NCBI GenBank assembly: GCA_945861925.1
Contig: CAMAWO010000008.1
Location: forward strand, 1-37,976
DNA length: 37,976 nt
Direction of reading: 5' to 3'
From: Bifidobacterium breve
Lineage (GTDB): Bacteria; Actinomycetota; Actinomycetes; S36-B12
Below the pieces are notes generated by a model. The model saw only the letters and a program-made list of their open reading frames with translations. It did not search any database and was not told the origin of the DNA. Made by a program: the position numbers and the translations under genes. The stretch's first letter is position 1; every line of letters begins with the position of its first letter. Positions 7,866-34,457 of this stretch are shown piece by piece.

Positions 7866-8984
7866 GTGAGTCGGCGCTCCTGGCCCCTCGACGCCCTGCG
7901 CGTGTTCGCAGCGCTCGTCGTCGTCTGCTAGCACTGGGGGCCCTACGGCCTCGGCGATCTCGCCGGGCCCGGTGCTCCCTCGATGCTCATGCGCTACGGC
8001 TTCATGGGCGTCGATGTCTTCTTCTTCATCTCCGGGGTCGTCATCACCCGCTCCGCAGTCGGACGCCACCCGCGCGATTTCGTCGTTGCCCGGTTCGCGC
8101 GCCTCGCCCCCGCGTACCTGCTCATCCTCGGCGCGACGATCGTCGTCGACATCCTCGTGTCCGACCCGCGCCTGACCTTCGAATCGGCGTTGTCATCGCT
8201 CACATTCTCGGAGTACGTCACCGGCACGGAGTCGGGCGGCCTGCTGATCCTCGACTCTTGGACGCTCTGGGTCGAGATCCAGTTCTACCTGCTCATCGCC
8301 CTATTCCTCCTCGCCGGCCTTCTCCTCCCGCGCAAGAGCAAGCGACGTTCGTTCCCGTCGCTGTCGCAATTGCGTGTCGTCTACCTCGTCTGGCTCGCGC
8401 TGCTCGCGATGGCGCTCGCCAACGTCCAGGAGATTCCGGGCCTGCTCACCCTTGCCGGGTACGCATCGATTTTTCTATGCGGAGCCCTCTTCGGGACGGT
8501 TGTCTCGTGGCGTGACGCCCTGCGCATGTCGCCGATCCTGCTCCTCGCCACGACCATGATGCTGTTCCGATTCCTCGAGCGGGCCTCGGGCGCGGCGATC
8601 GAGCCCACCGACTTCGGTGGCGCGCTCGCCCCCACCCTTGTCGGAGTCGGGCTGGTGCTCCTCTGCGTTGCGGCAGCCCTCGGGAGCCTCTCGGCCCGGC
8701 CGCTGCCCGTGCGACTCGCGAAGGTGCTCACCCTGTGCGCGCTCGCCACCTACCCGCTCTACCTCATGCACCAGGAGCTCGGCAATCGCCTTGTCATCTG
8801 GCTGCAGGGCATCGGTGGGCTTGCGGCACCACTGGCCCTGCTCATTGCCTTCGCCGTCGTCGTCGCACTCTCACTGTTCATCTCTTCGCGACTCGAGCCG
8901 GTTGCACGGCGCTGGATCGTCGCGACGTGGCGCCCGACCCCCGCGCAGCCGGAGCAAGAGTCGCCCGTCTCACCGAAGGGCTGA
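7866..8984 (+). pseudogene. acyltransferase family 3 (OafA/YrhL-like) membrane protein interrupted by TAG
   Basis: VSRRSWPLDALRVFAALVVVC*HWGPYGLGDLAGPGAPSMLMRYGFMGVDVFFFISGVVITRSAVGRHPRDFVVARFARLAPAYLL...; the in-frame TAG is at 7929-7931. The downstream ORF 7983-8984 is intact. Confidence 0.8.
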
Positions 8985-10097
8985 GTTCGACCGACCCCCT
9001 CGGATTCGATCCATCAACTCGACGAGCGGCGCACCGGCCACGTAGTGACGTCCCCTTCTTTCCCCTCGTGTCTCGAGCAGGCCCGCTTCGACGAGCCGGC
9101 GTAGGTCGCCTCCCGCTGTCTGCTCCGAGATTTGCTCGGAGGCAATCTCGAAGCTCGCTCGATACGTGCCATTGCGCACTTGCATGCCCTGTGCGGCATC
9201 GAAGAGGGCGGTCAACGAGCGCTCGGGCAGCCGGAGGTCAGCGACGAGCTCAGAGAGCGCCATCCAAAGGTGCTCGCTCTCGCGCACGCGGTCCAGCAGT
9301 GTCTGCGCCTGCCGAACGTGTGCGGTCATCATGAACTCCACCCAAGGCCTCGTATCGCGGGCTGGCTGCCAGCTTCCGCCGCCGACGGTGGCAAGCACGT
9401 CGTAGTATTCCTGCGTGTGCTGGCCGAGGTACTCCTCGATGCTCATGAACACCGGAGATAGCACGCCGGTGCGCGCGAGGACGAGGCTCTGCAGGCAGCG
9501 GGCCGCTCGGCCATTGCCGTCACGGAAGGGGTGCACCATCACTAGGTTGAGGTGGGCAAGGGCCGCTCGAACAAGGGGCGGCTCGGTGGACGACTCATTC
9601 AAGGAGCCGCACAGTTCGCGAATGAGGTGCGGGACCTCGCCGATGTCTGGGCCCTCGTAGACGATTAAGCCATCGATATCGCGCCGCACGAAGATCGCTC
9701 CGGTGCGCCACAGGCCCGGCCGGTTGGCGAGCGAATCGCTCGTCATCATGAAGTGCAGGCTCTTCAAGAGCCGCTCGTCATAGGCAAAGTCATCGTCGTC
9801 TGACATCTGCAGCACGTATGTCATTGCCTCGCGGTAACCGACGAGCGCCTGGCGCGTTCCCTCGTCCACGCTGATCGGGTCCTGCCGGGCAACGACCGCA
9901 GCCGCGTCGTCGAGGCCGGCGACGAACCCTTCGATGCTGTTTGATCCTTGGATATTGCGGGCGAACGACAGCCGCCGCAGGGATCCGGTCCAGCGCTTCG
10001 GCTCGTGCAACTGCCACCGCAGGCGACTGCGGTATTCGCCGATCTTCTCGAGGAGGGCCAGGTCGGTGTCTGTGAGGGTGGGCGCAGTGAACAACAT
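8970..10097 (-). CDS. Fic-family protein with C-terminal winged-helix-like region
   Basis: HPFRDGNGRAAR Fic motif; SNSIEGF resembling the (S/T)xxxE(G/N) inhibitory motif; ATG at 10097 preceded by GGAGGGAGG; ORF extends to 10148. Confidence 0.9.
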   Translation of the reverse strand: MLFTAPTLTDTDLALLEKIGEYRSRLRWQLHEPKRWTGSLRRLSFARNIQGSNSIEGFVAGLDDAAAVVARQDPISVDEGTRQALVGYREAMTYVLQMSDDDDFAYDERLLKSLHFMMTSDSLANRPGLWRTGAIFVRRDIDGLIVYEGPDIGEVPHLIRELCGSLNESSTEPPLVRAALAHLNLVMVHPFRDGNGRAARCLQSLVLARTGVLSPVFMSIEEYLGQHTQEYYDVLATVGGGSWQPARDTRPWVEFMMTAHVRQAQTLLDRVRESEHLWMALSELVADLRLPERSLTALFDAAQGMQVRNGTYRASFEIASEQISEQTAGGDLRRLVEAGLLETRGERRGRHYVAGAPLVELMDRIRGGRSNSALR

Positions 10098-10122
10098 GTG
10101 GGTGCCTCCCTCCAACGTAACT

Positions 10123-10145
10123 AAATATAGTTTATAACTATATTT
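10123..10145. promoter_or_regulatory. perfect palindrome upstream of fic, candidate operator
   Basis: AAATATAGTT-TAT-AACTATATTT; 10-bp perfect arms, 26 bp upstream of the likely fic start. Confidence 0.65.
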
Positions 10146-10219
10146 CAAAATGAATTAAACCATGATTCCATCACTCCCGTTCCTGCTTTGACTCAGGAGG
10201 TTTCAGGGATGACTCCATC

Positions 10220-14908: not shown

Positions 14909-16213
14909 TCACAGTCCGCTGCCAAACTCAGCTGGCTGTGAGCACGGTCGCCAAAGTCTGTCGATTGGCATGACGTGCAGCCGGTCTTCGTAGGTGTACG
15001 AACGTGCCCCAGTCGAGAGGGCCACTCCCGCAACAAAGTTGTCCCCCAGTGCCTCTCGCAGCTTGCGCAGACCCTTGAGGTCCGATCCGGGCACGCGCTC
15101 GTTGGCCTTGACCTCGAATGCCAGGACACGGCCGTCGTGGGCCTCGATCACGAAGTCGACTTCGTGTTCGTCGCCTGTACGCCAGTACCCGAGGATCGGA
15201 GCCTCGGGCAGCCAGGACACCTGCTTGGTCAACTCGCCCACCACGAACGTCTCGAGCAGGTTTCCGAACTCCGTCAGCACAGTCGGGTCTAGGGACGCCA
15301 GCTTCTGCGTGCTGATCCGCATCAGCCGTGCGGCGAGCCCCGAGTCGACAACATGGATCTTCGGCCTCGCTGCTGCCCGTGCTCGCAGTGTCTTGCCCCA
15401 GGCGGGCAGTTGCACGACGAGGAACAAGTCCTCGAGTAGGCGCACATAGCCGTCAGCTGTCGGCCGGGTCGTATCTAGGCCTGCCATGGCGGTCGAGACG
15501 TTGAGGATCTGCGCCGTCTGGCCCGCGAGGCGGTTCAGCAGGGACCGGAGAACTGCCCGCTGCCTGACCTTCTGCAGTTCGAGTGCGTCCCGCTCGAGTG
15601 AATGCTTGACGAAGTCGTCGAACCACCGGTTGCGTGCCCTGCCCTCCCGGCGCAGAGCCAAGGGAAACCCTCCTGCACAAAGCCGTTCGACATACTCCTC
15701 CCGTGTCGTCGTGGACGTGGGATGGGCCGCCACGGCAGCGTCGGGATCGTAAAAAAGAGCCACGACCAGGTCCTCGATGTCGCCAGCGATCTCGCCCTGG
15801 GAGAGCGGGAGGACGTTGAGGGTGTGGAGCCGGCCGGTCAGGGCCTGGGCCGTGACTGGGAGGGCTTCGTGCCTCGTAGATCCCGTCAGAACGGCGGTCC
15901 CGGGGAGCGCCCCGTCCCGGCTCATGCGGGTCTTGAGGGCGTCGAGCAACTCAGGCGCCTTCTGGTACTCGTCTAGGCACACTGGCCGTTCTCCGGCCAC
16001 CACCTGCGTCGGGTTGGCCCGTGCAGCGTCCAGAGTCGCTGGGTCGTCTAGGTCGATGACCCCGACCTTGTGACGAGCGGCGAAATCGCGCAGCAGTGTG
16101 GACTTGCCTACCGACCTCGGCCCGTGGAGCGCGATCACTGGCTCCTCGGCCGAACGTGCTTCGATGACATCGTGAAGTCTGCGACGGGCCATGCCCTCGG
16201 ACAGTCCGCTCAT
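14909..16213 (-). CDS. AAA-family ATPase with DUF4143-type C-terminus
   Basis: VIALHGPRSVGKSTLLRDFA (Walker A), PVCLDEYQKAPELLDALKTRMSRD, TGSTRHEALPVTAQALTGRLHTLNVLPLSQGEI, ...LLETFVVGELTKQ...GYWRTGDEHEVDFVIE. Confidence 0.9.
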   Translation of the reverse strand: MSGLSEGMARRRLHDVIEARSAEEPVIALHGPRSVGKSTLLRDFAARHKVGVIDLDDPATLDAARANPTQVVAGERPVCLDEYQKAPELLDALKTRMSRDGALPGTAVLTGSTRHEALPVTAQALTGRLHTLNVLPLSQGEIAGDIEDLVVALFYDPDAAVAAHPTSTTTREEYVERLCAGGFPLALRREGRARNRWFDDFVKHSLERDALELQKVRQRAVLRSLLNRLAGQTAQILNVSTAMAGLDTTRPTADGYVRLLEDLFLVVQLPAWGKTLRARAAARPKIHVVDSGLAARLMRISTQKLASLDPTVLTEFGNLLETFVVGELTKQVSWLPEAPILGYWRTGDEHEVDFVIEAHDGRVLAFEVKANERVPGSDLKGLRKLREALGDNFVAGVALSTGARSYTYEDRLHVMPIDRLWRPCSQPAEFGSGL

Positions 16214-16240
16214 GTGTGCAGGATACCAGAGTTGCAGCAC

Positions 16241-19814: not shown

Positions 19815-21050
19815 CTAGGTGAGACGGAACTCGACGGGGAGTTGCACAAAGCCTTGGCCGATCTCGCCTCTCTGACTGCGCACCGGGAACTCGACGGCGT
19901 CATTCCAGGAGTCGAGCAGTTTCGAGCCGCTGAAATCGAAGACATCGACATGCACCCGGTAGCGGCCGGGCAGCAGCGGGTTGTCGGTCAGTGCGACCGT
20001 GATCGTCCGGTCCCCTTCAAGGGTTCCGAAGTCGGTGCCGACCCGGTGATTGCTCACCATGGTGACGAGGGGGCCGGATTCATGCTGAAGGGCAATGCGC
20101 ACGTTCGGCCCGAGCACGGGCTCGCGCGCCGTCATCTCAAGGCTGATCTGGAAGGTCGTGCCGGTCTCGGCGTGACCGATGGGCTGGCCGTCGAGGTCGA
20201 CGATCTTTGCGCTGCGCACCCGGATGCTCTGATCGCCAGCCCGCGGGTCACCCGCGTCGTCGCGCACCGCCTCGATTTGCAGATTGCGCGCGGCTTCGTC
20301 CGAATTGACCCGCTTTAGGTACGCGGCGATGGTCTCCGTGGGGGCACCTGCCGTCTGGAGTTCACCATGCTCGAGCCAGGCGATCTCATCGCAGAGCGCC
20401 TCGAGCTGACCGAGGCCATGGCTCACGACGATGATCGTGCGGCCCGAGCGCCGCAGTGCATAGAGGTGGTCGAAGCACTTGCGCTGGAACTCCTCGTCGC
20501 CGACCGCGAGCACCTCATCGACAACGAGAACGTCTGGTTTCATATGCACCGCAACAGAAAATCCAAGGCGAACATACATACCGCTCGAGTAATGCTTTAC
20601 CGGGTCATTGATGAAATCGCCGAGCCCGCTGAACTCGACGATCTCTTCTGTCACCGCCTGAATGTCCTTGCGGGGCAGTCCGAGGATCGAGCCGTTGAGG
20701 TTGATGTTCTCTCGGCCGGTCATGTCGGGGTGGAAACCCGCTCCGAGTTCGATGAGTGCGGCAACCCGTCCGTCTGTAGTGATGGATCCTTCAGTCGGGC
20801 GGTAGATGCCGCCGATCATCTTCAGGAGGGTCGATTTGCCGGAGCCGTTGTGGCCGATGAGTCCATAGACGCTCCCCTTGGGGATCTGGAGCGTGACATC
20901 GCGAACGGCCCAGAAGTCCTCAGGCTTGCGGGCACGCCCGCGAACGAGGCGCTCCTTGATGCTGTTGCGTCGATCGGTGTGACGCTTGAAGCGCTTGCCG
21001 ACTTGCTGGATGTCGACGGCGAGGCTAGCGCCGACCGGTTGGATCGTCAC
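19815..21050 (-). CDS. wzt: polysaccharide ABC transporter ATP-binding protein with Wzt C-terminal domain
   Basis: GLIGHNGSGKSTLLKMIGGI, YSSGMYVRLGFSVAV, VLVVDEVLAVGDEEFQ; C-terminal beta-rich Wzt_C-like region; GTG start overlaps the permease stop (GTGA). ORF to 21524 is a spurious extension. Confidence 0.92.
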   Translation of the reverse strand: MTIQPVGASLAVDIQQVGKRFKRHTDRRNSIKERLVRGRARKPEDFWAVRDVTLQIPKGSVYGLIGHNGSGKSTLLKMIGGIYRPTEGSITTDGRVAALIELGAGFHPDMTGRENINLNGSILGLPRKDIQAVTEEIVEFSGLGDFINDPVKHYSSGMYVRLGFSVAVHMKPDVLVVDEVLAVGDEEFQRKCFDHLYALRRSGRTIIVVSHGLGQLEALCDEIAWLEHGELQTAGAPTETIAAYLKRVNSDEAARNLQIEAVRDDAGDPRAGDQSIRVRSAKIVDLDGQPIGHAETGTTFQISLEMTAREPVLGPNVRIALQHESGPLVTMVSNHRVGTDFGTLEGDRTITVALTDNPLLPGRYRVHVDVFDFSGSKLLDSWNDAVEFPVRSQRGEIGQGFVQLPVEFRLT

Positions 21051-21844
21051 AGCATCTCCCCGATGTCTTCGCTCCAGCGGTTGAAGATCGCAAAGCCGGC
21101 CCAGAAGGTGAGGAAACCGCCGACCAGGAGGCCAATGACCACGAGTGCCGGTGGCGCCACGAGTGAGTACATTGCGTCGTGCATACCCTCGACATACCAA
21201 GAGACCGGGTTGAGCTTCACCACCCATGACAACAGTTCGTTCTGGCCATCCACCATGCTGATTGGGTAGAGCACCGGGGTAAGGAAGTACAAGGCGCCGA
21301 GTACCACCGCGACGATGTACATAACGTCGCCGAACCGCGCATTGATGATCGATAAAACCAGTCCCACTCCCTGGGCGAATAGGGCCATACCTACGAGGAT
21401 CGGAAGCGCGAGGGTCCAGGTCCAACTGATGTTGCGCAGGAACAGGAACATGATGACAAGTACGCCGAGCTCGAGCAGCACCTGAATCATTTGGACAAGC
21501 GAGGCACCGAGCACTGGGGCCCATGCTGGGAACTGCACCTTCTTCAGCAGCTCGCCGCTGCTTTTCAGCTGGGTCATCGACAAGGTCAGGAGACCGGAGA
21601 AGAGGTTCCAGGTGACGAGGCCGGTGAACAGGAAAGCGGCGTAGGAGCTGCCCTCACCGTTGCCGAGCTCGGGAGCTTTGATTCGGAAGACGAGGCTGAA
21701 GACCGCCGCGAAGATGACGAGGGTCGCGAGTGGCTGGATGAGCGACCACGACCAGCCCAGAATGCTCGAGCGGTATCGGGTAGCGAAGTCACGATTCGCG
21801 AAGGCGAAAATGAGGGCCCGACGCGTGTAGAGGTCGGTCAGCAC
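21047..21844 (-). CDS. wzm: ABC-2 type polysaccharide export permease
   Basis: NRDFATRYRSSILGWSWSLIQPLATLVIFAAVFSLVFRI...LTPVLYPISMVDG...LVKLNPVSWYVEGMHDAMY-like architecture. Confidence 0.92.
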   Translation of the reverse strand: MLTDLYTRRALIFAFANRDFATRYRSSILGWSWSLIQPLATLVIFAAVFSLVFRIKAPELGNGEGSSYAAFLFTGLVTWNLFSGLLTLSMTQLKSSGELLKKVQFPAWAPVLGASLVQMIQVLLELGVLVIMFLFLRNISWTWTLALPILVGMALFAQGVGLVLSIINARFGDVMYIVAVVLGALYFLTPVLYPISMVDGQNELLSWVVKLNPVSWYVEGMHDAMYSLVAPPALVVIGLLVGGFLTFWAGFAIFNRWSEDIGEML

Positions 21845-26239: not shown

Positions 26240-27976
26240 TTAGTTGACCCACTTTAGGTGGGTTACGCATACTGACGGCTCTGGGTTGCCTACGCCTAGG
26301 TATGTGACCGTCGTGCATTCGGGTTGGGTCGGGAGTGCCCAGGCTGGCAGGCTTTCCCAGAAGGCTTGGATTTGTTCGCGCTTGGGCGCGTACATCGCGA
26401 TCGCCGTCGGCTTGAGTATTTCGAGCGCTTTGACCTCCTCCCGTGACAGCGCCGCGTTCCCCGTCACCAGGTTGTATTTCCCCCACAGTTGCATGGCCGC
26501 CACGGCTGACATGACTCGGTCGGGATCTGTCCAGATCGCTACTCGATCGGTGCGATCGGTGTGGTCCAGCACCCATTCCTCGGCCTTCACCTTCGCACGC
26601 ATGAGTAATTCGCCGTTGAAGTCGACGTACGCGGCACGGAAGGGGTACTGGCCGTAGATCCCAAGCTGACCCCGGCCGTTTTGCAGGACCTGAGCCCCTG
26701 TCGCGATGAGCGCGATTGCGCCCATGACGACGAGGGCGGCCAGTGCATCTGATGGTCCACGCGCTGCGACGGCGGCAAGTACGAACGCGAGCACGAAACC
26801 CCCGGTGATGAGCAGTCCCTGATTGAGCGTGACCTGCGCCTCCCAACGGCCGGCCCACAGTACGAGCGGCACCCCCGCGATGATCGGCAGGTAGGCGATC
26901 GAGCCCAGCCTCCTGTCACCGACAATCGCCGCAAACGCGAGCCCGATCGACACCAGCGCGCCCGGCCAGAGCTTCGCCGTGTAGTGAGGGGCCTCAAGCC
27001 AGGGCCCCGGCACGAGGAACAGATAGCCCCAGGTGAACAGGATGTTCATGCCTGCGATGGCTGAAGCGATGAGGGACCATCGATTGGCACGCGTTACGGC
27101 GAGCGCGATGAGGCTGATGATGAGGGCTGCCGCAGGCACGAAGAGCGTGACATCGCGAGTCCAGATATTCGGGTCGCTGATGAAGCTCGCGTAGTCGAGT
27201 CGGCCGTTCCAGTCAAGGTAGGTGCCAACCCAGGACCGTCCAGGGAAGATCACCGCGCCGGCAGCAAGGAACCCCGTGATACTTACGACGAATCCCACAG
27301 CGGCTGCCCCTGCATCAATAAGCAGGCGCCGCCATCGCTCCTCAGCGTCGGTGAACAGCCCCACGGCGCGCACCGCGAGCCACATGGACAGGGCGAGGAA
27401 CAGGGCGTACGGGTTGAGCATGACCAGCCACCCCGCCACCAGCCCGGAAAGAGCCCCCGGCAGCCAACGAGCTCGTTGGGAACCGAGAGTGCACCAAACG
27501 GCTAAGGCGAGGAACAGCGTGGTGGCTGCCATGATCGCCCCGGTCAGGTACGGGTTACCCACGTAGCTGAGCACCATCGTGTTGAGGGACGCGAAGAGGG
27601 CCACCCCCACCGCGAGCACCCGATTGCTCGCCCGCTTCACGAGCACGTAGGTCGAGCCGACGATGACGAGGATGAGCAGGAGGCGCCAAATAGCAAACCC
27701 GGTCCACGGGTCGCCAGCCGTGACGAGGAGTCGAACCGGGGCGATATATCCGAGCCGGGTCCAGGTGTAGGCGGGCTCGATGGCGCGATCGGTCACGTCG
27801 CTGCCGAAGAGGGCCAAGGAGGCGTAGAACTCGGAGTCGGGGGAGTTGAAACCCGCCCACTGCCGGGAACCGGAGAAAAAGGCACTGAATACGGAAATGC
27901 CCAGAATGATCACCGGGTCGATCCCCGCACCCCACCATCGCGTAGGTGTTCCTACGCCGGAGGCTGATCCACGCAT
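26240..27976 (-). CDS. polytopic membrane protein, GT-C-like glycosyltransferase (ORF extends to 28093)
   Basis: Many hydrophobic segments; early loop GFNSPDSEFYASLALFG; C-terminal soluble region ...DFNGELLMRAKVKAEEWVLDHTDRTDRVAIWTDPDRVMSAVAAMQLWGKYN. Confidence 0.7.
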   Translation of the reverse strand: MRGSASGVGTPTRWWGAGIDPVIILGISVFSAFFSGSRQWAGFNSPDSEFYASLALFGSDVTDRAIEPAYTWTRLGYIAPVRLLVTAGDPWTGFAIWRLLLILVIVGSTYVLVKRASNRVLAVGVALFASLNTMVLSYVGNPYLTGAIMAATTLFLALAVWCTLGSQRARWLPGALSGLVAGWLVMLNPYALFLALSMWLAVRAVGLFTDAEERWRRLLIDAGAAAVGFVVSITGFLAAGAVIFPGRSWVGTYLDWNGRLDYASFISDPNIWTRDVTLFVPAAALIISLIALAVTRANRWSLIASAIAGMNILFTWGYLFLVPGPWLEAPHYTAKLWPGALVSIGLAFAAIVGDRRLGSIAYLPIIAGVPLVLWAGRWEAQVTLNQGLLITGGFVLAFVLAAVAARGPSDALAALVVMGAIALIATGAQVLQNGRGQLGIYGQYPFRAAYVDFNGELLMRAKVKAEEWVLDHTDRTDRVAIWTDPDRVMSAVAAMQLWGKYNLVTGNAALSREEVKALEILKPTAIAMYAPKREQIQAFWESLPAWALPTQPECTTVTYLGVGNPEPSVCVTHLKWVN

Positions 27977-28038
27977 CTTCACAACGTACGCCGACGCAGC
28001 ATCTGCTGGTAATCCGGCCACCTCACGACCTCGCCTAC

Positions 28039-30066
28039 TCAGGCTGACCGGCACCAGAACTCGTAGGACTCGGCCTTCGGGACGACCGCCCACCCACGAT
28101 CAGGCGCATTGGAACTCGCGCTCTGCCAGAGCACCGACCCGGTCACGACTCCACCCGATGAGACAAGGCCCGTCGTGACACCGGGGTCGCATGCGCCCGG
28201 CTGACGTTCGACGACGACGAGTTGCTGCGTCGATTCGCCCTTGAGCGCATCAACAGTTGCCAGGTCCACCTGTTGCCACCCTGCAGGCACCGGCTTGGCA
28301 AGGAGTGCCTGATCAATGCCGATCGCGAAGGGGTGGTCGGGGGTGGGGGGCGTGAGGTCCTCAGGGAGCCATGGGTCGGGCTCTACGACGCCCTCGTAGA
28401 CCCAGGGCGTCATGACACCGCCGCCAACCGTGGCGAACACCGGGCCTCGCGGCAGGTCCTTCGAGAGGTCAGGGGACATGGCCAGCTCGGGCGGCGCAGT
28501 TGCTCCGGCCGTGATGAGCACCGTGCGGGCGATCTGCCCGGTGGAGCGAGGAGCTACGACCGTCGCCGGCTCAACCTGATTCGGATCCTTCACCATGAGC
28601 GGCACATGGGCCACCTCAGCCGAGCGCTGCTCCAGGGTGTCGCCAACCCGTCGATCAGCCGTGACGCTGATGGTCGCACCATGATCAGATGTGAAAACGA
28701 TTATGGTGTTGTCGTAGCGTCCGGTTGCCTTAAGTTCGGCGATCAGTTGGCCGAGTTGCCGATCGAAATCGATCGCTGAGTTCGCGTAGAGCCGCCGCTC
28801 GATCGACTGCAGTTCAGGTGTGGAGTAATTGCCAGCCTTGTTGCTGCCAACCATGTGAGCATCGTCAACGATAGGCAGGCGCGAGGGATAGATCACTTTC
28901 CCCTCACGATCGACGTTCCACGGGGCGTGGGTGCGGATCGTGTGCCAAAAACCGAAGATCGGCGCACCCGGCGCTGCCTGCTCGGCGCTCCTGAGACCCG
29001 CGATGGCCTTGCTCACGGAGTTGCCCTCGGCATTGTCGCCGAACTCGTCGCCACCGGCCCAGAAATCCCGCCACTTGCCGTCGAATGAGGGAAAGGCGGC
29101 CGAGAAGGGATGGGCGAGGGCCGTGCGGCCGGCGATCGCTGCCGCATCCGCAGCAAAGCCGAGGAGTTGGCTCACCACATTCGTATCGCGAGCCGACCCC
29201 AAGCTTGCACACTCATTGGCGTCGCATTCGAATCTGAACATCGGCGACTCCATGACGACGGAGTACTCGGACGCAAGGCTGGGAACGATGCCGATGTTCG
29301 CGCGAACCTCCTGCATGCGTTCTGGGCCCTCCGCTTCCACGTCCGAAATCCCTGCGAGCATCGACGGTATGGCGTAGTCGGTGTAGTTCGCTGTCGAATA
29401 GGCGTGGGTGTAGGTCGTCGAATTCGCCTGCAGCGACTTGAGATTCGGGAACTCCGGACGGATGGCTCCTGCCTTGTCGAAGACGAGTGGGTACTGGAGT
29501 TCGTCAGAGACGATCCACATGATTGATGGACGCTGCGGGTCGGGTGCGAACGCTAGCGGGGGCGCCGCCTCTGCGGCGCTGCCGGCGAACGCGGAGAGCG
29601 CGAGTGGCGCCACGGCCGCAATCGAGGCGAAGACGAACAGCGGCGAGCCCATGGTGAAGCGGCGTGCGAGCAGCATCACGCCGGCGGCGACAACAAGGCT
29701 GATGATTGGCCCAAGTGCGGGGGCACCAGAAAAGACGGTCTGGGTGAGGGCATTGCCGGCCAGGAACCAGACGACGACGAACATGATGGCTGACGCTGCG
29801 ACATCGTAAGATGCTGACTGCAGACGCTTCTTCAGAACGGTGAGCACCCCGGCCAGGAGTAGCCACAGGGCAACCAGAACAACGGTGAGCATAAGTACCC
29901 ATGCGATTTTCGACACCCCGTGCGCCGAGAAGAACACCTCGTTCGCAGCGATTTTGTCATTCGCGGGGATGACCACCGCAAGCACGACGAGGGCCAGCAG
30001 CCATGAGGCACTGTCGTAGGGACTTGTATTGCGTCGCTCACCGAGGCGAGCAGTAAGGTCGCTCAT
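28039..30066 (-). CDS. sulfatase-like, alkaline-phosphatase-superfamily membrane transferase (ORF extends to 30195)
   Basis: N-terminal membrane helices then RPSIMWIVSDELQYPLVFD...YTHAYSTANYTDYAIPSMLAGI...GFWHTIRTHAPWNVD...NTIIVFTSDHGATISV; ATGA overlap with the upstream gene. Confidence 0.85.
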   Translation of the reverse strand: MSDLTARLGERRNTSPYDSASWLLALVVLAVVIPANDKIAANEVFFSAHGVSKIAWVLMLTVVLVALWLLLAGVLTVLKKRLQSASYDVAASAIMFVVVWFLAGNALTQTVFSGAPALGPIISLVVAAGVMLLARRFTMGSPLFVFASIAAVAPLALSAFAGSAAEAAPPLAFAPDPQRPSIMWIVSDELQYPLVFDKAGAIRPEFPNLKSLQANSTTYTHAYSTANYTDYAIPSMLAGISDVEAEGPERMQEVRANIGIVPSLASEYSVVMESPMFRFECDANECASLGSARDTNVVSQLLGFAADAAAIAGRTALAHPFSAAFPSFDGKWRDFWAGGDEFGDNAEGNSVSKAIAGLRSAEQAAPGAPIFGFWHTIRTHAPWNVDREGKVIYPSRLPIVDDAHMVGSNKAGNYSTPELQSIERRLYANSAIDFDRQLGQLIAELKATGRYDNTIIVFTSDHGATISVTADRRVGDTLEQRSAEVAHVPLMVKDPNQVEPATVVAPRSTGQIARTVLITAGATAPPELAMSPDLSKDLPRGPVFATVGGGVMTPWVYEGVVEPDPWLPEDLTPPTPDHPFAIGIDQALLAKPVPAGWQQVDLATVDALKGESTQQLVVVERQPGACDPGVTTGLVSSGGVVTGSVLWQSASSNAPDRGWAVVPKAESYEFWCRSA

Positions 30067-31508
30067 CGCTGCTCCAGCAGGCCCCAGGCATTGACGACCA
30101 CTCGCGTCGCTGAGGTCGTGCCCATGACCTCGACGTGAGCGAAGCGATTCCGTAGGGCACCGAGGAGGGCATCGGTTGAGTATTCGCCGCTCCAATTGGG
30201 AATCTGACCCAGCAGGATGCGCGACTTCTCGTCATTCTCGTCAGCGAACTCGATTTGGACTGGGGCGCCAAACGCAGCGAGGGCATCGACCGCGAACTGC
30301 ATCGGCGTGCCCTGGGTGATGACCACGTGGTGCAGAACCGCTTGGCAGATGACCGCTGAGGGCTGCACCCGATCGGTGAACGCCGCAAATTCCGCGTTGA
30401 GTAAGCCCGAGGCCGGGGTGAGGTTGGTGATGTCGCCGAGGATCGGTGTGACGTCGCCGGCAACATCGGAGGGCAGGCCCTGATGGAGCATGTCGAGCGC
30501 TCCGGCATCGGCGTCCATCACGATCACTCGTGCACCTGCGTGGCGGGCGAGGTGGGCGGCGGTGAATCCGTCGTTGCCGCCGACGTCGAGAACGAGTCGA
30601 CCACGTCCAGAATCGGCCTTGATGAAATCGGCGGCGAGCCCTGACTTCCGGGTGAGGTCATCGTTCTCGTAATGCGCCCGGGTTCCGTAGTCGACCCAGG
30701 TGGTGGCGTGCTCCTTGCCGTGGAGTGTGCGAACCTGTTTTGCGAGGCGTTTGGTCAGCGAGCGGGTGGCATTGCGTGCGAGATCCTGATTCTTGTTCGC
30801 GGTATCAGCAAAGGTGGACTCACTGGGCGCGTTCCTTTCGACCGGCTTCGTCGTGGCTTGGAGGAGCAGGAGCGACAGGCTTCGGCGGGCCTTCTTCGGC
30901 AGGAGCGCCCTGGCCGAGTCAGAGCGAAGTCCACGGTGCATGCTCACGTTCCAAGCATCCGCGGCAGTCACGCGCTCACCCGAGCCGACCGCAAGTGGAT
31001 TGATGAAATGTTCGATGAACTGACGTGACGCATTCCAGGACGGGTTCGGGCGCCAACGCTCGACCGAGCCGAGGTCAATGAAGACAGGTTGCATGCCCCG
31101 GAACTGCACATTGAATGCCGAGGCGTCCTTGAGGTCGAGACCGATGTCAAGGAGGCTCAGCCGAAGGTCGAGGGTGAGCAGCGCCGCTGCCTCAAGAAGG
31201 GAGTTCGGCCACTCCCACGGGTAGGTGATGAGGTCCACGTGTTCGACCGAGAACACCGAAGCATCAGTTGCCGGATTCCGGCCGGAACGAGCCGCGTATG
31301 CCCTGACGATCGGCCCGGCAGTTGCGTCCGGCAATTCCTCGAATGCGACCAGCGAGCCGGCGGCGGTCAGCGAACCGTACAGTGCCGAGCCGCGCAGTGT
31401 CCGCATGGCAGCGGAGGAAGATGGTCCGGCCATGCGGTACCAGATGCCCTCGTGCAGAAAGGCTGCGTTCTCGGGATCGCGGAAACTCGCGGTTGGCAGG
31501 ATTGTCAC
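30063..31508 (-). CDS. class I SAM-dependent methyltransferase with N-terminal kinase-like domain
   Basis: RLVLDVGGNDGFTAAHLARHAGARVIVMDADAGALDML (MT motif I); N-terminal TYPWEWPNSLLEAAALLTLDLRLSLLDIGLDLKDASAFNVQFRGMQPVFIDLGSVERW resembles a kinase DxxxxN...IDfG arrangement. Confidence 0.8.
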   Translation of the reverse strand: MTILPTASFRDPENAAFLHEGIWYRMAGPSSSAAMRTLRGSALYGSLTAAGSLVAFEELPDATAGPIVRAYAARSGRNPATDASVFSVEHVDLITYPWEWPNSLLEAAALLTLDLRLSLLDIGLDLKDASAFNVQFRGMQPVFIDLGSVERWRPNPSWNASRQFIEHFINPLAVGSGERVTAADAWNVSMHRGLRSDSARALLPKKARRSLSLLLLQATTKPVERNAPSESTFADTANKNQDLARNATRSLTKRLAKQVRTLHGKEHATTWVDYGTRAHYENDDLTRKSGLAADFIKADSGRGRLVLDVGGNDGFTAAHLARHAGARVIVMDADAGALDMLHQGLPSDVAGDVTPILGDITNLTPASGLLNAEFAAFTDRVQPSAVICQAVLHHVVITQGTPMQFAVDALAAFGAPVQIEFADENDEKSRILLGQIPNWSGEYSTDALLGALRNRFAHVEVMGTTSATRVVVNAWGLLEQR

Positions 31509-31520
31509 GTGTCGTGCGGG

Positions 31521-31700
31521 CTAGGACTCGGTCGGGGTGGGCTCGGGTGCCTGATCGGTGACCGCGGTGCCCTTGCCCCGGCCACGTAGCTTTGCCACCT
31601 GTGACCGGAGAAAGAACCAAGAGCCTGCAGCGCCACTCGCGATGGCGGCAAGCAGGTACGAACCCGTGCCAGCATCGATGTAGCCGACTGAATTCAGCAT
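31521..31700 (-). CDS. 59-aa small membrane protein (YIDxGTGS motif)
   Basis: MLNSVGYIDAGTGSYLLAAIASGAAGSWFFLRSQVAKLRGRGKGTAVTDQAPEPTPTES*; below the ORF-track length cutoff. Confidence 0.8.
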   Translation of the reverse strand: MLNSVGYIDAGTGSYLLAAIASGAAGSWFFLRSQVAKLRGRGKGTAVTDQAPEPTPTES

Positions 31701-31792: not shown

Positions 31793-32647
31793 CTACCGAA
31801 GGGCGTTCAGGAGGCGAGCCCAGGAGAGCGATTCGACGATCGCATCGTCAGTCGCCAGCGGCCGCAGCCTGCCGTGGAGGTCGCGCAATTTGCCCACGAC
31901 CTCTGGCCCCGCGGTGACCGCGGAGGCCAGCCGCTTGAGCCTGGAGTCGTCCTGTCGGCCCCGTCCGAGGCCCACCTCTTGGGTGTCGATGACCCGGTAG
32001 TCGATGACGAGCTCCGTATTGATCAGCATGGCGCGCCTGGCGGTCGCGACCAGACTCCACCAGCGATCGTGCAGCCATCCTGTAGGGATCGTGAGGTCTG
32101 CGAAGCCCGCGGGGCGCAGGGCGCTTGCGCCGCCGGTCGCGATCGAATGCCTGACGGCGTAGCGCATCTGCTCGGCTGACGGCTCATGATTCCAGTCGCT
32201 GGGAACGGGGAAGGTGGCGCGCAGCGTTCCGTCGAGCGACTCATTGCGGGCATTGATGAGGGTGCCGTCGGACGCAACCATCGCCATCTCGGGTTGCATC
32301 GCAAGTTGGCCCACCTGATGGCCGACCCGGGTCGGGTACCACAGGTCGTCATGGTCACCGAGGACCGCGACGTCGTACTTCAGGCAGGCGCGGATCCCCT
32401 GATGGAAGTTGTGGGCGATTCGGGTGGTGACGTCCTCGGCCCGCGATGTTGCTCGATAGACACTCCCTCGACCACCAAGGACCGCGTGGACGATGGAACG
32501 TGTGGTGTCGGTCGAATTGTCGTCAATGACGACGATGGCGTCGGGCTGGTGCTCCTGCCCGACGATGCTGACTAGGGTCTGTTCGATCCATTGCGCCGAA
32601 TTGCTCGTGACGATCAGTGCAGCGGACGAAAGGGGTTTCGCGTTCAT
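31793..32647 (-). CDS. glycosyltransferase family 2
   Basis: SAALIVTSNSAQWIEQTLVSIVGQEHQPDAIVVIDDNSTDTT...AVLGDHDDLWYPTRVGHQ. Confidence 0.9.
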   Translation of the reverse strand: MNAKPLSSAALIVTSNSAQWIEQTLVSIVGQEHQPDAIVVIDDNSTDTTRSIVHAVLGGRGSVYRATSRAEDVTTRIAHNFHQGIRACLKYDVAVLGDHDDLWYPTRVGHQVGQLAMQPEMAMVASDGTLINARNESLDGTLRATFPVPSDWNHEPSAEQMRYAVRHSIATGGASALRPAGFADLTIPTGWLHDRWWSLVATARRAMLINTELVIDYRVIDTQEVGLGRGRQDDSRLKRLASAVTAGPEVVGKLRDLHGRLRPLATDDAIVESLSWARLLNALR

Positions 32648-33768
32648 GAATGTGATGTCTTTCTCTTTGGGCGCGCTGCCAGGCCCTGGATGAGGGCTTC
32701 GTACTCATCAGTGACTGCGTCCCATTGGTAGACCGCGGCGATTCTAGCGAGGCAGTTGGTGGTGAACTCGGTGAACGTTTCATCAAGGCCCTCGCCGGCC
32801 GATTGATCGAAGATCGCCGTGAGTTCCGGCTCAGTCGCCCAGAAGAACGCTTGACTGTCGGTGACCTCACGGTTGAACTCAACGTCATAGGCGAGGACGG
32901 GGACTCCGGCGCCCATGGCACGGAGCAGTGATGGATTAGTTCCCCCGACACTGTGGCCGTGGATATACGTGCGGGCATTCGCGTACAACTGGTCGAGTAA
33001 CTGCTGGTCATAGATTCCGCCAGTGAAAATGATCCTCGGGTCGTCCTGCGCTGCCGCCCGCACAGCGTCGATGTAGCCGTGCGAGTAGGGCGCGCTGCCC
33101 ACCACGATGAGCGGCCGGGTTTCAGCGCTCAACCGGTAGGCGCTCACCGCGTCGAGCACATGGTTTTCGGGCTCAAATCGCGCGACGATGAGGTGGTAAC
33201 CCTGTTGATCGAGCGAAAACTCTGCGATGCGGTCGCTGCCCGGGGTGATGATCTCCGCGCCGTAGCGGATGACGACGCTTTCGCGTCCGTACTCCGCCTT
33301 CACGTGGTCGGCGATTGCTTGTGAATCGGCGATGACCTCGTCGCCCCACAGCACCGATGCCCGCTCGGCCCAGCGGTAGTACCGCGCGCCCACACCCCGC
33401 CACTTCTCACGTTTCGACTCCAAGCCGTCGAGGTGAATGGCTGTTGGGATGCCAGCGAGCTGCAGCGGCCGCAGGAGTGGCGCATTGCCCGCGTTGAGGA
33501 GCAGCACAACATCGGGTCGGTCCTTAATGATCGCGTGAACCGTACTGACCGCCGTGTGGCTGAGGGTCTCGGTCATGCGATGGCGCAGGGCCGGCGCATT
33601 GACGAGGGTCATCCCGAGGTACTCGGTTCGCTGCTGGCCCGGATTGCGGCAGTAGACCGTGACCTCGTACCCGCGCGCTGCCAGGCGCCTGCCGATTTCC
33701 TCGACGGCGGTCTCGAAGCCCCCGTGCAGCGCTGGCACGCCGCGCGTACCCATCAGGGAGACCTTCAC
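32644..33768 (-). CDS. DUF1972-type glycosyltransferase family 4 (possible rhamnosyltransferase; ORF extends to 33852)
   Basis: VKVSLMGTRGVPALHGGFETAVEEIGRRLAARGYEVTVYCRNPGQQRTEYLGMTLVNAPALRHRMTETLSHT...; GTG start at 33768. Confidence 0.9.
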   Translation of the reverse strand: MKVSLMGTRGVPALHGGFETAVEEIGRRLAARGYEVTVYCRNPGQQRTEYLGMTLVNAPALRHRMTETLSHTAVSTVHAIIKDRPDVVLLLNAGNAPLLRPLQLAGIPTAIHLDGLESKREKWRGVGARYYRWAERASVLWGDEVIADSQAIADHVKAEYGRESVVIRYGAEIITPGSDRIAEFSLDQQGYHLIVARFEPENHVLDAVSAYRLSAETRPLIVVGSAPYSHGYIDAVRAAAQDDPRIIFTGGIYDQQLLDQLYANARTYIHGHSVGGTNPSLLRAMGAGVPVLAYDVEFNREVTDSQAFFWATEPELTAIFDQSAGEGLDETFTEFTTNCLARIAAVYQWDAVTDEYEALIQGLAARPKRKTSHS

Positions 33769-33836
33769 GCGACCACCGTACTTGCACGACGTGCGCATCT
33801 CCCCCGTCGGTGGTCTGCGCTGATAGCCTTCGGCGC

Positions 33837-34457
33837 GTGCAGACGAGTCCACTTTCGATAGACGGTGTCTGGGAATTTACCCCCAAACTCCGGCCCGACG
33901 ACCGGGGTGTCTTCCTCGAATCCTTCAAGGAGTCGGTCCTCGAAGAGGCGATCGGCCACGATTTCACCCTGCAGCAGATGAACATCTCGGTCTCTAGGAT
34001 CGGCACCGTTCGCGGAGTGCATTTCGCACTCGTCCCACCCGGGCAGGCGAAGTATGTGCAGTGCTTCTCGGGGCGAATCCTCGACGTCGTCGTCGATATC
34101 CGGGTCGGTTCGCCGACCTTCGGGCAGTGGGACGCAGTTGAACTCGACGACGAGAGCCGCAAGGGTCTCTACATCGCCGAGGGACTCGGACACGCCTTCT
34201 GCGCCCTGTCTGACTCGGCCACGGTTGGCTACCTGTGCTCGACTCCGTACTCGCCTGGGCGCGAGTTCGGCATCCACCCGCTCGATCCCGCGCTGGGCCT
34301 GCCCTGGCCGAGTGGCGCCGAGTCGGTTCTTTCGGAGAAGGACGCTGCCGCGCCGACCCTTGGGGAGGCAAGGGCCTCGGGCCTGCTCCCCACAATGGCC
34401 GAGTGCCAAGCCTTCGCGGCGACCAAGGAGATCACCGGGATGTCGTCAGGCGCCTAG
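33837..34457 (+). CDS. rmlC: dTDP-4-dehydrorhamnose 3,5-epimerase
   Basis: RPDDRGVFLESFKESVLEEAIGHDFTLQQMNISVSRIGTVRGVHFALVPPGQAKYVQCFSGRILDVVVDIRVGSPTFGQWDAVELDDESRKGLYIAEGLGHAFCAL. Confidence 0.95.
   Translation: MQTSPLSIDGVWEFTPKLRPDDRGVFLESFKESVLEEAIGHDFTLQQMNISVSRIGTVRGVHFALVPPGQAKYVQCFSGRILDVVVDIRVGSPTFGQWDAVELDDESRKGLYIAEGLGHAFCALSDSATVGYLCSTPYSPGREFGIHPLDPALGLPWPSGAESVLSEKDAAAPTLGEARASGLLPTMAECQAFAATKEITGMSSGA

Follow-up and report, generated by a model that had tools for sequence, protein, structure and literature searches.

A predicted NoeA-family kinase-methyltransferase, its small membrane protein and its phosphatase-fold partner beside an actinobacterial polysaccharide exporter

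WbdD of Escherichia coli O9a carries a kinase and a methyltransferase in one chain, phosphorylates the end of a glycan and then methylates that phosphate (PMC3482155). The N-terminal methyltransferase-kinase part of ORF6-O7 from Klebsiella O7 is a second, independent terminator that makes a methylphosphate (PMC11231755), showing that such domain pairs recur among glycan terminators. The NoeA/Lani_1194 family, described in 2022, was likewise predicted to combine a kinase with a methyltransferase, with Arg replacing the catalytic Lys (PMC9758233). Its conserved neighbours are Lani_1193, found in 65% of 816 neighbourhoods, and Lani_1195/NoeB, a protein of alkaline-phosphatase fold found in 38% of them (PMC9758233), and noeA and noeB themselves are host-range nodulation genes for which Nod-factor modification has been proposed (PMC9048898, PMC9758233). 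Here we analysed a gene for a kinase-methyltransferase (kinase-MT) at positions 30063..31508, minus strand, of contig CAMAWO010000008.1, positions 1 to 37,976 of which make up the window. An earlier note had read this gene as a candidate chain-end modifier in a polysaccharide locus with an ATP-binding cassette (ABC) exporter.

On sequence comparison, the kinase-MT of the window belongs to the NoeA/Lani_1194 family. It is a protein of 481 residues with a GTG start and without a transmembrane segment by hydropathy (residue numbers below are counted from the GTG start; model numbering is one lower). A tblastn search against Sinorhizobium meliloti NoeA gave 27% identity over 93% of the length (E 2e-19), and a pairwise blastp comparison gave 4e-34; tblastn also reached homologues in Planctomycetota, Gemmatimonadota and a deltaproteobacterium. 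The homology is full-length, a kinase-like part with Asp/Asn/Asp and Arg for Lys precedes the methyltransferase, and a phosphatase-fold gene adjoins, so that both domain order and the downstream gene are as in NoeA/NoeB and Lani_1194/Lani_1195 (PMC9758233). Unlike the S. meliloti operon, the window's member is freshwater actinobacterial, lies beside an ABC-exporter glycan locus and has no nodL. Because the family is already published (PMC9758233), the two-domain make-up is not new; the kinase-MT adds to an already predicted family, and the novelty lies in a conserved third gene and in the evidence for independence from the exporter. The small membrane protein, the kinase-MT and the phosphatase-fold enzyme very probably constitute a conserved three-gene unit with the kinase-MT in the middle. 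With this third gene NoeA/NoeB, on record as host-range genes since 1995, become a defined three-part system that is testable in a laboratory symbiont. The kinase-MT is patchy in the window's order (23/166 genomes, all in one family), and no relative was found in the viral contigs and phages searched. A very divergent homologue in G035 (L089:7870-9486) keeps the Asp/Asn/Asp but has neither the small protein nor a phosphatase-fold gene as neighbour.

We detected the third gene, which was absent from the open reading frame (ORF) list, by inspecting the 285 nt that precede the kinase-MT gene. It is the first gene of the module (31521..31700, minus strand), encodes a small membrane protein of 59 residues (MLNSVGYIDAGTGSYLLAAIASGAAGSWFFLRSQVAKLRGRG...) with the motif YIDAGTGS, is preceded by a Shine-Dalgarno-like AAGGTGA, and stops 12 nt ahead of the point where the kinase-MT starts. 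The general layout has three parts in this order: the motif (A/G)-Y-(I/L)-D-x-G-(S/T)-G-S, a hydrophobic segment and a basic tail. In 16 sequences the motif comes after a hydrophobic stretch that mostly ends in AxA or similar, resembling a signal-peptidase site. The median net charge of the tail is +3, so under the positive-inside rule the motif end should face outwards. The protein had no match in Pfam, NCBIfam or PDB, and its motif strings did not occur in the searched literature. In S. meliloti, a small gene with YLDPGTGS lies between nodL and noeA and is annotated merely as 'hypothetical protein'. The small protein is probably Lani_1193, as the order 1192 acetylase/1193/1194/1195 mirrors nodL/ORF/noeA/noeB; the main text of PMC9758233 contains no description of Lani_1193.

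A search of 15,528 small ORFs placed the small protein next to the kinase-MT gene at 55 of 58 loci, in one copy each and on the same strand; the profile was seeded with 40 sequences, and more than 10 of the matches in these loci lay outside the seed. One of the three misses, L080, had been excluded by the ORF-length limit, and its small protein was recovered in the genome-wide search. Across whole genomes of the order, the protein was present in all 23 genomes with a kinase-MT, against a single spurious match (G337) in 143 others. In the phylum sample the corresponding counts were 32/34 and 4/263, the two genomes without it being those with the two weakest kinase-MT matches. The four matches in genomes free of the kinase-MT might have been dismissed as spurious, but each is a divergent small protein (AxA-YVDPSxxTYTIQ...WRR) fused N-terminally to a phosphatase-fold protein of 728-1430 residues (L107, L108, L109 and L110, two of the four proteins looking near-identical). 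Additionally, six stray copies away from any kinase-MT, in five genomes, all adjoin a phosphatase-fold gene. This pairing and fusion suggest that the phosphatase-fold enzyme is the small protein's primary partner. At L106:12083-16522, the small protein and a phosphatase-fold gene are flanked by a gene resembling CDP-glycerol glycerophosphotransferase on one side and by a GT2-methyltransferase gene on the other, a setting that suggests a phosphate-rich glycan context with no kinase-MT nearby.

The partner gene (28039..30066, minus strand) starts in an ATGA overlap with the kinase-MT stop codon and encodes a NoeB-like membrane enzyme of the alkaline-phosphatase superfamily (Pfam Sulfatase, 82 bits), with about five N-terminal transmembrane segments followed by the catalytic domain. 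The superfamily's metal-site residues D/T/H/D are kept, and the window enzyme has Thr at the nucleophile position. Across the 57 homologues of this enzyme the position is Thr or Ser in every case and no CxPxR sulfatase motif is present, which fits phosphate rather than sulfate chemistry; a formylglycine sulfatase was ruled out on the same count, the C/S-x-P-x-R maturation motif being missing in 57/57. All 20 near relatives with room for it carry this gene directly 3' of the kinase-MT. Of 30 loci from distant Actinomycetota with room for it, 21 have it immediately 3' and three immediately 5'; in one it is adjacent on the other strand, in one it is about 4 kb away, and four lack it. Order-wide, a full-family phosphatase-fold enzyme was detected in 22/23 kinase-MT genomes vs 1/143 others (naive Fisher 4e-25), and in the sole exception, G350, the kinase-MT is just a fragment at a contig edge. 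NoeB falls into the same profile family, although a profile of the window's clade alone reaches NoeB at just E 0.0035. The enzyme shares membrane segments, superfamily metal-site residues and a Thr/Ser nucleophile with LtaS, EptA and YejM, and its matches to the YejM and LtaS models are weak; unlike all three, it makes up a separate subfamily linked with the small YxDxG(S/T)GS protein. Directly after this gene lies a 617-residue hydrophobic protein (26240-28093, minus strand) that has no Pfam or NCBIfam match and is shared, among the loci, with L001 only.

The kinase-like domain covers about residues 8-215 (30864..31487, minus strand). Its motif LKDASAFNVQFRGMQPVFIDLGS contains the putative catalytic loop and metal-binding motif D128-x4-N133-x11-D145 (31074..31127, minus strand). 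These three residues and R25 are invariant in 57/57 aligned homologues from several phyla, including NoeA at 27% identity, so the motif is not due to chance. The AlphaFold model of this domain (predicted local distance difference test, pLDDT, 78; predicted TM-score, pTM, 0.81) was compared with PDB by Foldseek, and kinases or kinase-like domains topped the list: the best match was CK2alpha (E 2e-4, probability 1.00), with PknG, the RNase L kinase-homology domain, EGFR and MSK1 among the others. In the model, a helix (101-119) and a strand (123-125) lead to the loop with D128 and N133, followed by strands 133-136 and 139-142, D145 and a helix (156-174). As modelled, this is the secondary-structure order of a kinase C-lobe, and the leading PDB matches agree with a two-lobed protein-kinase fold with its catalytic loop and metal-binding Asp. 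Searching PDB sequences with the domain's sequence gave no meaningful match; the kinase is visible through the fold search alone.

The C-terminal class I S-adenosylmethionine (SAM) methyltransferase domain (30066..30665, minus strand) is recognised by Pfam, alignment and fold match, and holds the SAM motif VLDVGGNDGF (30564-30593, minus strand). The single Pfam match on the protein is Methyltransf_25 in this half, at E 5.6e-5, slightly below the curated cut-off. D308, G310 and N312 of the SAM motif and the pair H393-H394 are invariant in the alignment of 57 homologues. A model of the full-length protein (pLDDT 76, pTM 0.80) matches class I methyltransferases in PDB, including the methyltransferase domain of WbdD (4azt, 4azs). 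Methyltransferases dominate this whole-protein search, and WbdD is aligned through its methyltransferase part only. The earlier note had proposed, from the letters of the DNA, the reading frame and its motifs, a SAM methyltransferase behind a kinase-like half and a domain order opposite to that of WbdD, and our searches bear out each of these proposals. Its two conditions for rejection, an N-terminal fold unrelated to kinases and loss of the Asp and Asn residues in homologues, did not apply. The small ORF at 31521-31700 had escaped the note, which also made no connection to the overlapping phosphatase-fold gene.

Taken together, these features allow a scheme in which a cytosolic kinase would phosphorylate a sugar or lipid-linked glycan precursor and the methyltransferase would methylate the product, possibly on the phosphate as WbdD does. 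The small protein may bind both enzymes, the kinase-MT through a basic tail in the cytosol and the phosphatase-fold enzyme through the outer motif. That enzyme, with the small protein as membrane subunit or substrate, would then transfer or hydrolyse a phosphate group outside the membrane, its target being an envelope or secreted molecule. To this transmembrane phospho-modification unit as a whole we give a probability of roughly one half. Given its companions, a small membrane protein and a phosphatase-like enzyme that faces outwards, the kinase-MT probably places a phosphate-based mark on a molecule of the cell surface instead of capping the window's sugar chain. In this genus the unit has come to lie in the polysaccharide locus of the ABC exporter, whose glycan it may decorate. 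A more specific version, which we put forward tentatively, is an undescribed transmembrane modification machine: the exoplasmic YxDxG(S/T)GS protein could serve a transferase of alkaline-phosphatase fold as its dedicated subunit or acceptor, the kinase-MT could supply the phospho(methyl) group from the cytosol, and the ORF between nodL and noeA could be a component that the host-range system of S. meliloti had been missing.

Several points weigh against this scheme. Arg (R25) stands where kinases usually have Lys, and an ion-pair Glu could not be identified in the NoeA/Lani_1194 family (PMC9758233). The models of the N-terminal domain and of the full-length protein were built from 19-23 similar sequences, with TM-scores near 0.38. 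In the window's own small protein, the membrane-spanning segment has only weak hydrophobicity (mean of 1.5 over 17 residues). The co-occurrence counts of the unit's genes are not phylogenetically independent, and methylation of a phosphate is suggested as a possibility by analogy with WbdD only.

A competing account, close to the role that the earlier note had given the protein, is that the kinase-MT acts as WbdD does, capping the non-reducing end of the locus polysaccharide with a methylphosphate that Wzt_C reads for export. Both domains are in place, WbdD's active-site triad D351/N356/D369 (PMC3482155) parallels the Asp/Asn/Asp of the kinase-MT, and its methyltransferase is the fold match 4azt/4azs. 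The window holds a Wzt ATPase with the C-terminal domain that had been read there (19815..21050, minus strand; Wzt_C 49 bits) and a Wzm-type ABC permease (21047..21844, minus strand), about 8 kb from the kinase-MT and with several glycosyltransferases alongside, and the sister genome G422 has its phosphatase-fold gene and Wzt_C 7 kb apart, as in the window. Wzt_C is also present in 18/23 kinase-MT genomes of the order vs 29/143 others, a difference confounded by kinship; in genus g210 of the same family, eight members have Wzt_C and none has the kinase-MT. Against a terminator, the window's arrangement is repeated only within the genus (L001-L003, G422). Of the 33 kinase-MT genomes in the phylum sample, 23 carry Wzt_C, and it lies within 20 kb in just three of those 23 (the window, G083 and G035). 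The distance exceeds 700 kb in G016, and G205 has no Wzt_C, each of these genomes being one contig; the majority of near relatives (60-77% identity) have Wzt_C and the kinase-MT on different contigs, although separate contigs in fragmented genomes do not prove distance. A 'Wzt' match in L011 proved to be a TOBE-domain ATPase of the ordinary sugar-import kind, not Wzt_C. The near-relative loci that were read hold the unit in housekeeping surroundings, among purL/purF/purM purine-synthesis, ftsK or permease genes, and the distant loci share no glycan or exporter neighbourhood: 99 Pfam families were found in 92 neighbouring proteins, none of them in more than two. These surroundings indicate that the three-gene unit is independent of the exporter, and linkage to Wzt_C is rare outside the genus. 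The protein itself also differs from known terminators, which carry a long coiled-coil ruler (PMC11231755). Its longest predicted helix has about 22 residues and hence leaves no such ruler, and neither of the profiles A1 and A2 matched a WbdD chain among PDB sequences. WbdD is ordered methyltransferase, kinase, coiled coil, and ORF6-O7 consists of a methyltransferase, an APH-like kinase and a coiled coil fused to glycosyltransferases, whereas the window's protein runs from kinase to methyltransferase. The constant partners of the kinase-MT, one enzyme of phosphatase fold and one small membrane protein, are not known for WbdD. We therefore consider a terminator improbable; the two domains are supported, and the chain-end role read by Wzt_C is not. 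A kinase-methyltransferase near a Wzt gene need not be a WbdD. The Lcin_0519 family of predicted kinase-methyltransferases, whose genes adjoin Wzm, Wzt and glycosyltransferases, is described as a separate family (PMC9758233).

It is conceivable, though less so than the phospho-modification unit acting at the cell surface, that the three genes modify a lipid or a small secreted molecule, play no direct role in the window's polysaccharide and lie in this locus incidentally. The modification proposed for Nod factors and the many unrelated surroundings of the unit speak for such a target; the glycosyltransferase neighbourhood kept in this genus and a membrane-bound partner enzyme from a superfamily that acts on the envelope speak against it. 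As for the kinase, Arg for Lys and the missing ion-pair Glu could mean reduced or different catalysis, such as AMP transfer, or a pseudokinase. A catalytically dead kinase fold, used by the methyltransferase as a binding module and leaving methylation as the sole activity, would agree with those two features, but it would have to explain why the predicted catalytic Asp, the Asn and the metal-binding Asp are invariant across several phyla and why the kinase-MT is constantly paired with a phosphate-handling superfamily; we judge it unlikely, and an active kinase domain likely.

Upstream of the unit lie a GT2 glycosyltransferase (31793..32647, minus strand), in a neighbourhood common to L001-L003 only, and a GT4 glycosyltransferase resembling the rhamnosyltransferase Cps2T (32644..33852, minus strand); L001-L003 (85-89% identity) have the same glycosyltransferase neighbours around the unit. 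Elsewhere in the window, an AAA_14/DUF4143 ATPase is encoded within the polysaccharide locus (14909-16240, minus strand), and a Fic/DOC family protein is encoded near sugar-nucleotide genes (8970-10148, minus strand).

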